34,958 nucleotides of DNA from a virus. The notes under the pieces are model-generated. The model was not told the origin of the DNA, did not search any database, and saw only the letters and a list, made by a program, of their open reading frames with translations. The number at the start of each line of letters is the position of its first letter. Position 1 is the stretch's first letter. Position numbers and translations under genes: made by a program. Shown one piece after another: positions 28,522 to 28,724 of the stretch. Location of the stretch: positions 1 through 34,958 of IMG/VR virus record IMGVR_UViG_3300035670_000750; one strand, 5' to 3'.

Positions 28522-28724
28522 GGTGTAGAAAAGGTGTAGAGTGTAGTTTGCGAAAATCAAACTACACCACCCTCAAACCCTTGTGTAGCAAGGGCTGTGT
28601 AGTTGTGTAGTGTATATACTATTATTATTATTATTATTATTATATATATATAGAATAGAGAGCTATTCTACACAGCACTTCTACACTCAATCCTACACGG
28701 GGGTATTTCGGAGTTGGTCAGTTG
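28522..28724. other. Putative origin of replication with GTGTAG iterons
   Basis: A 203-base gene-free stretch directly after the helicase. GTGTAG occurs six times on the + strand (28523, 28534, 28541, 28583, 28597, 28605) and four times inverted as CTACAC (28562, 28668, 28681, 28693). Three perfect hairpins are present: 9 bp (28541-28549 with 28559-28567), 6 bp (28578-28583 with 28589-28594, loop TGTAG) and 8 bp (28651-28658 with 28663-28670). Between the two groups of boxes is an AT-only tract of about 30 bases made of ATT and AT repeats (28620-28651), a plausible unwinding element. Confidence 0.7.

Follow-up and report, generated by a model that had tools for sequence, protein, structure and literature searches.

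A candidate iteron-type replication origin directly behind a putative SF3 helicase gene in an apparently full-size phage

What is the role of ten copies of a 6-base word, in both orientations, that crowd directly behind a phage helicase gene? The question is raised by the IMG/VR virus record IMGVR_UViG_3300035670_000750, which was analysed over its whole length of 34 958 bases (hereafter, the window). Judging from comparisons at the sequence level, the stretch at 28523–28698 is very probably a phage replication origin of the iteron type, most likely bound by the helicase. The evidence from the sequence itself consists of two sets of boxes that converge on an AT-only run, behind the gene for a helicase of a ring-forming superfamily with a predicted winged helix. 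The iteron-type origin, put forward already in the first-pass annotation, is the best reading of the array because the same place and plan recur in unrelated phages and prophages that were found through their helicases, because a winged helix is predicted in the window helicase, and because published parallels exist in the PICI/SaPI elements and in SCCmec. Overall, the array is a well-supported candidate origin whose kind is known but whose genomic setting is new.

The array and the surrounding genes

The features of the window that are relevant for this assignment are the following.

20184–21824: integrase gene with DUF6538
26089–27027, + strand: AEP-like primase gene, 312 amino acids
27034–28521, + strand: SF3 (DUF5906/VapE-like) initiator helicase gene, 495 amino acids, listed with a TTG start
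28147–28518, + strand: C-terminal domain of the helicase (residues 372–495), predicted winged helix
28523, 28534, 28541, 28583, 28597 and 28605, + strand: starts of the GTGTAG boxes (word search)
28562, 28668, 28681 and 28693, − strand: starts of the CTACAC boxes (word search)
28523–28610: left box set, six + boxes and one − box (28562)
28541–28550/28558–28567: hairpin 1, with two boxes plus TTTG as its arms (10 bp) and a loop of 7 bases
28578–28583/28589–28594: hairpin 2, 6-bp arms, loop TGTAG
28620–28652: AT-only run of 33 bp, presumed unwinding element
28651–28658/28663–28670: hairpin 3, 8-bp arms, 4-base loop
28668–28698, − strand: right box set (boxes at 28668, 28681 and 28693)
32922–34367: terminase (large subunit) gene

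The ten boxes, six GTGTAG and four CTACAC, span 28523–28698, in agreement with the first-pass annotation, which counted the same boxes in about 180 bases; the frame it drew around them (28522–28724) was correctly placed but slightly wide. The helicase ORF ends at 28521 and the first box starts at 28523, so that the array does lie directly downstream of the helicase gene, as had been claimed. In the entire window, GTGTAG is found in 14 copies compared with the 9.0 expected, and the unusual feature is therefore the clustering. The maximum number of GTGTAG copies per 250 bp is 10, whereas 100 dinucleotide-shuffled versions of the window have at most 3; for any 6-mer built from at least three letters, the maximum in these shuffled versions is 6.

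The AT-only run at 28620–28652 is the sole one of at least 20 bp in the window. Boxes are located on both sides of this run, as originally described, seven to the left (six + and one −) and three to the right (all −), i.e. the two sets converge on it. Among the three hairpins, for which stems of 9, 6 and 8 bp had been given, the second and the third have these lengths but the first has 10 bp; its arms are indeed formed by two boxes, and the loop of the second is indeed TGTAG. When folded as single-stranded DNA, either strand of the array region does better than every one of its 200 shuffles (z −3.8 and −4.9). Neither an Rfam family nor a tRNA was detected in the window.

Intergenic repeats often serve as operators, and some initiators repress themselves; the boxes could accordingly be bound by a repressor or by the helicase and control the replication genes, with the hairpins ending transcription. 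This arrangement is very unlikely here, given that the boxes lie behind the replication genes rather than in front of them, that a promoter and terminator scan detected neither sigma-70-like nor terminator-like sites within 28523–28698, and that an AT run between converging sets is origin-like. GC skew, which had been named as a check of the origin, gave a neutral outcome: there is no switch at the array (+0.19 before and +0.23 after), yet the skew tracks gene direction, with negative values confined to blocks that contain many leftward ORFs, and hence neither supports nor refutes an origin. As a mirror of gene orientation, it was rejected as origin evidence.

The helicase ORF matches PF19263 (1.2e-13) and PF05272 (2.1e-7), both over the cut-off, and thus carries the DUF5906/VapE-like ATPase core of an SF3/D5-like initiator helicase; it also matches phrog_1156, a DNA primase (6.3e-20). 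When a profile of five such helicases was compared with solved chains, the matches were 7ola (DNA primase, 1.4e-19), C962R and the NrS-1 primase; we take 7ola to be the protein of a SaPI. The C-terminal domain has no Pfam match. The structural model of its residues 372–495 has a mean pLDDT of 72.6, with 41 residues at 90 or higher, and consists of helices followed by a beta hairpin. The high-scoring structural matches of this model are winged-helix domains, with the best Z of 6.9, which is middling by the scale of the tool; a Foldseek search had no hit with E ≤ 0.001. The model of the full-length helicase (pLDDT 36) is unusable. A search of IMG/VR with peptides of the window helicase found no close relatives.

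The AEP-like primase matches phrog_9765, a DNA primase (1.5e-27), and contains a DxD motif (DVD); it has no Pfam match, and comparison with solved structures returned nothing meaningful. The next AEP motif after DxD is expected to hold a histidine; in the window protein, and likewise in a 28%-identical relative (L002), a serine is found where this histidine is expected.

The integrase and the terminase, together with a portal-like head-tail adaptor protein that is also encoded in the window, point to an apparently temperate phage, and the genome is apparently full-size. The portal shares 33% identity with its counterpart in the HTVC010P-type phages, and the genome of HTVC010P consists of 34 892 bases compared with the 34 958 of the window record. 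The gene order suggests that the ends of the record may join between the terminase and the portal.

Box clusters near other helicase genes

The recurrence of the plan was surveyed from the helicases to the boxes and from the boxes to the helicases. In the survey that started from helicases, no selection was made for the box word, and copies of 6-mers were counted in the 500 bp downstream of the gene. Among the Bradyrhizobium-family loci (the best 30 of the 69 genomes that matched out of 391), 16 have at least 7 copies of a 6-mer and 20 have at least 6, compared with 1 and 11, respectively, of the 195 control windows; the number of loci below 7 copies is 14. Ten phage records were hand-picked for diversity from 30 listed of the 66 with a match. 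Four of these reach at least 7 copies behind the helicase gene, which is the case for none of the 141 control windows: the Moraxella phages Mcat1 and Mcat5 (both GTGCAGGGT) and Mcat9 (GTGAAGGGT), and NrS-1 (AAAGTGTAACC). Vibrio phage 1.017 has 6 copies, a number that is likewise reached by 0 of the 141 control windows, and the remaining five phages (AXL_3, PW916, AAM22, CRPAP1904 and OLIVR4) have 3 copies, with no cluster downstream of the helicase. Hairpins of at least 8 bp are present in 27 of the 43 downstream stretches compared with 117 of the 427 control windows, and a hairpin arm includes a box in 19 of these 43 stretches. Judging from these counts, the plan, often with another box word, recurs in part of the other phages that encode such a helicase and is missing from the rest. 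A genome scan with two helicases recovered only their source prophages, in Bradyrhizobium sp. BTAi1 and Rhodopseudomonas sp. B29.

In the survey that started from boxes, IMG/VR was scanned for closely spaced sets of two GTGTAG and one CTACAC, which yielded at least 120 stretches. Among the 120 listed, 41 contain at least 5 boxes per 250 bases and 30 contain at least 6; with the permuted control word GTATGG, at least 6 boxes were found in 4 of 120 listed stretches. Two of the control clusters (L255 and L216) look by eye like origins, with the same plan and the other box. Thus, despite the enrichment of GTGTAG, the plan does not depend on this particular word.

All 41 contigs with at least 5 boxes were searched for DUF5906 and D5_N. 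A DUF5906 gene was detected in 10 of these (11 of 42 counting the window), and in 6 of the 41, the cluster is located within about 2 kb of the gene, directly behind it in L035, L054 and L107, and on its other side in L038, L017 and L044. In 4 of the 10 contigs with a DUF5906 gene besides the window, the cluster is at least 4.6 kb away. Exactly 3 boxes are present in 56 contigs, 50 of which formed the control set, contigs with 4 boxes being left out; a DUF5906 gene was found in 4 of the 50 and near the boxes in none, by distances taken by hand.

The genes around the cluster were read in 18 of the 41 contigs, and one protein was scanned at each of 10 loci. The helicases of L035, L044, L054 and L107 show 15–20% identity to the window helicase, and by eye, the four clusters nevertheless repeat the plan of the window, with a box tandem, a box-armed hairpin, boxes, an AT-rich core and inverted boxes. 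Clusters of GTGTAG are also located directly behind genes for DUF3987 (L052 and L031), PriCT-2 (L101) and Toprim with AAA_25 (L015) proteins, so that the plan may cross helicase families. The helicase of L134 is 54% identical to that of L035; behind its gene, there is no GTGTAG and no strong 6-mer cluster, and a long inverted repeat is readable by eye. For the origins of L107 and L054, identity amounts to 61 of 88 positions inside boxes compared with 120 of 232 outside, a comparison that was set aside because the aligner shifted some of the boxes.

Several clusters have other surroundings. In L099, the cluster lies behind a weakly integrase-like ORF, and in L081, it is in apparent coding repeats, as judged by eye. 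The cluster of L029 (3344–3585) adjoins an integrase gene and may be an integrase-binding or attachment region, not an origin.

Boxes that change together with the helicase

Lineages of the Bradyrhizobium family differ in their box, and the copies within one origin agree. The loci were labelled by hand-made groups of the top 6-mer, with three loci lacking a 6-mer at 5 copies left unlabelled. When the loci are arranged by helicase identity to L107, the box is GTGTAGGG at 100 and 63%, TGTAGGGT at 61%, TGTCGGG at 59–60% and GCGAGGGT at 52 and 43%; the more distant members of the family carry TAGGGA, TGGGAG and TGGGAGGAT. Within one helicase family, the box word accordingly runs through the series TGTAGGG, TGTCGGG, GCGAGGGT, TGGGAGGAT, with the place and the plan kept. 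The word TGTAGGG persists to about 61% helicase identity, i.e. the box is kept only in near relatives and is swapped as a set in farther ones. The helicase tree shows 8 label changes among the 27 labelled loci, and helicase identity is correlated with shared box words (rho 0.32, reached by none of 1000 permutations).

Because the boxes change as a set, beside an initiator that changes with them, the best explanation is that the initiator binds them as duplex DNA. At the level of sequence comparison, a joint change of this kind, with place and plan kept, argues for a cognate DNA-binding initiator. It is quite possible, if still slightly doubtful, that one plan behind the helicase gene, with a box tandem, a box-armed hairpin, an AT core and converging boxes, is common to many temperate SF3 phages and not just to PICIs, that the word drifts with the helicase in steps, as when a lock and its key are re-keyed, and that other helicase types are perhaps included. 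If the boxes are re-keyed with the initiator, the series makes the co-change of an initiator and its many sites directly testable, and this joint re-keying is the part most worth following.

The change of the box word also bears on a different function, namely that the boxes are chiefly single-stranded priming signals for the primase, with GTG as the template start and the hairpins as the structures that present it, and that the helicase binds the duplex only secondarily. Priming at GTG has been reported for pRN1 ORF904 and for the NrS-1 PrimPol (PMC4234260, PMC8718748; these and the other reports are cited from the accessible parts of their texts); GTG is contained in GTGTAG, AAAGTGTAACC, GTGCAGGG and GTGAAGGG, a box lies in a hairpin arm at 19 of 43 loci, and the array of NrS-1 includes a copy of the recognition sequence of its enzyme. 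Nevertheless, such a main role of the boxes is very unlikely, considering that GCGAGGGT, TAGGGA and TGGGAGGAT, all without GTG, occupy the same place in other lineages, that in Mcat1 and Mcat9 a primase zinc ribbon is accompanied by weak matches to Toprim and not by an AEP match, and that pRN1 still replicated after a change of GTG (PMC4234260). The suggestion of the first-pass annotation that the boxes are read as single-stranded structure is thus possible but not general, because the boxes of many lineages lack GTG and the Moraxella phages lack an AEP match; on the same grounds, GTG was rejected as the general meaning of the box. Least probable of all is a packaging, recombination or partition site that lies behind the helicase gene by chance: phage genomes do carry repeat sites of these kinds, and the cluster of L029 adjoins an integrase gene, but the terminase and integrase genes of the window are kilobases off and the site recurs behind the helicase genes of unrelated elements.

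Known systems with a related plan

The iteron-type origin, as the preferred reading, has its published counterparts in several groups of elements. In PICI/SaPI, the origin is located immediately 3' of rep, with two iteron sets around AT-rich DNA, and a plasmid replication test of this origin was positive (PMC6092414). The pri-rep-ori arrangement of these elements is matched in the window by the primase gene upstream, by an array immediately 3' of the initiator gene (28521 and 28523, respectively) and by two sets of short iterons, with seven and three boxes, that flank the AT-only run at 28620–28652. Unlike PICI/SaPI, which are satellites without a full set of virion genes, the window encodes the portal-like protein, the large terminase subunit and the integrase of an apparently full-size phage; the box-armed hairpins of the window are unmentioned for PICI/SaPI in the accessible part of the report (PMC6092414). 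According to that same part, no other known bacterial replicon has the PICI/SaPI origin plan (PMC6092414); the window and the Bradyrhizobium-family loci run against this statement, placing the plan in an apparently full-size phage and in these loci. In the literature searched, from which subscription journals were mostly missing, no such origins were recognised in ordinary phages, and no claim is made that they are unpublished. The comparison also offers a simple rule for origins in unnamed phages, namely to look behind the SF3 helicase gene.

In SCCmec, the C-terminal domain of Cch2 binds iterons downstream of its own gene (PMC7581432). The window resembles this Cch2/CCPol-MP system in having a helicase, a C-terminal duplex-binding domain, which is only predicted in the window, and short repeats behind the gene; CCPol-MP is a primase priming in the repeats, as the window primase might (PMC7581432). 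The differences are that SCCmec has three AAGTG iterons and another primase-polymerase, and that converging sets around an AT-only run, present in the window, are unstated for SCCmec in the accessible text (PMC7581432).

If the array functions as an origin, the winged helix would bind the boxes as duplex DNA, and two helicase rings would assemble, one per box set, facing each other. Their ATP-driven action would melt the AT run at 28620–28652, the neighbouring AEP-like primase would prime the opened strands, and host enzymes would take over. The least secure step of this scheme concerns the box-armed hairpins, which may help to keep the strands apart or to position the primase.

Two further systems, pRN1 ORF904 and phage BIP-1, resemble the window in the combination of a primase, an SF3 helicase and a winged helix (predicted in the window), and in an essential region directly 3' of the gene, with a stem-loop and GTG (PMC4234260, PMC3869888). 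In contrast to the ten boxes and three short hairpins of the window, these have one large stem-loop, of about 100 bases in the pRN1 type, and, by the statement of the authors in the accessible text, no iteron structure (PMC4234260, PMC3869888).

Nitratiruptor phage NrS-1 is similar to the window in that the gene of its DUF5906 primase-helicase is followed immediately by AAAGTGTAACC boxes, and is different in the fusion of the primase with the helicase and in the box itself. The accessible part of the published work on NrS-1 describes two 8-base sites and does not mention the array (PMC7102993). The recognition sequence published for the NrS-1 primase-polymerase (PMC8718748) has a copy at 5050, inside the array behind the gene (4904–5330 of L128). 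An annotated hypothetical protein of NrS-1 (4907–5308) overlies the box array, so that this annotation may be spurious.
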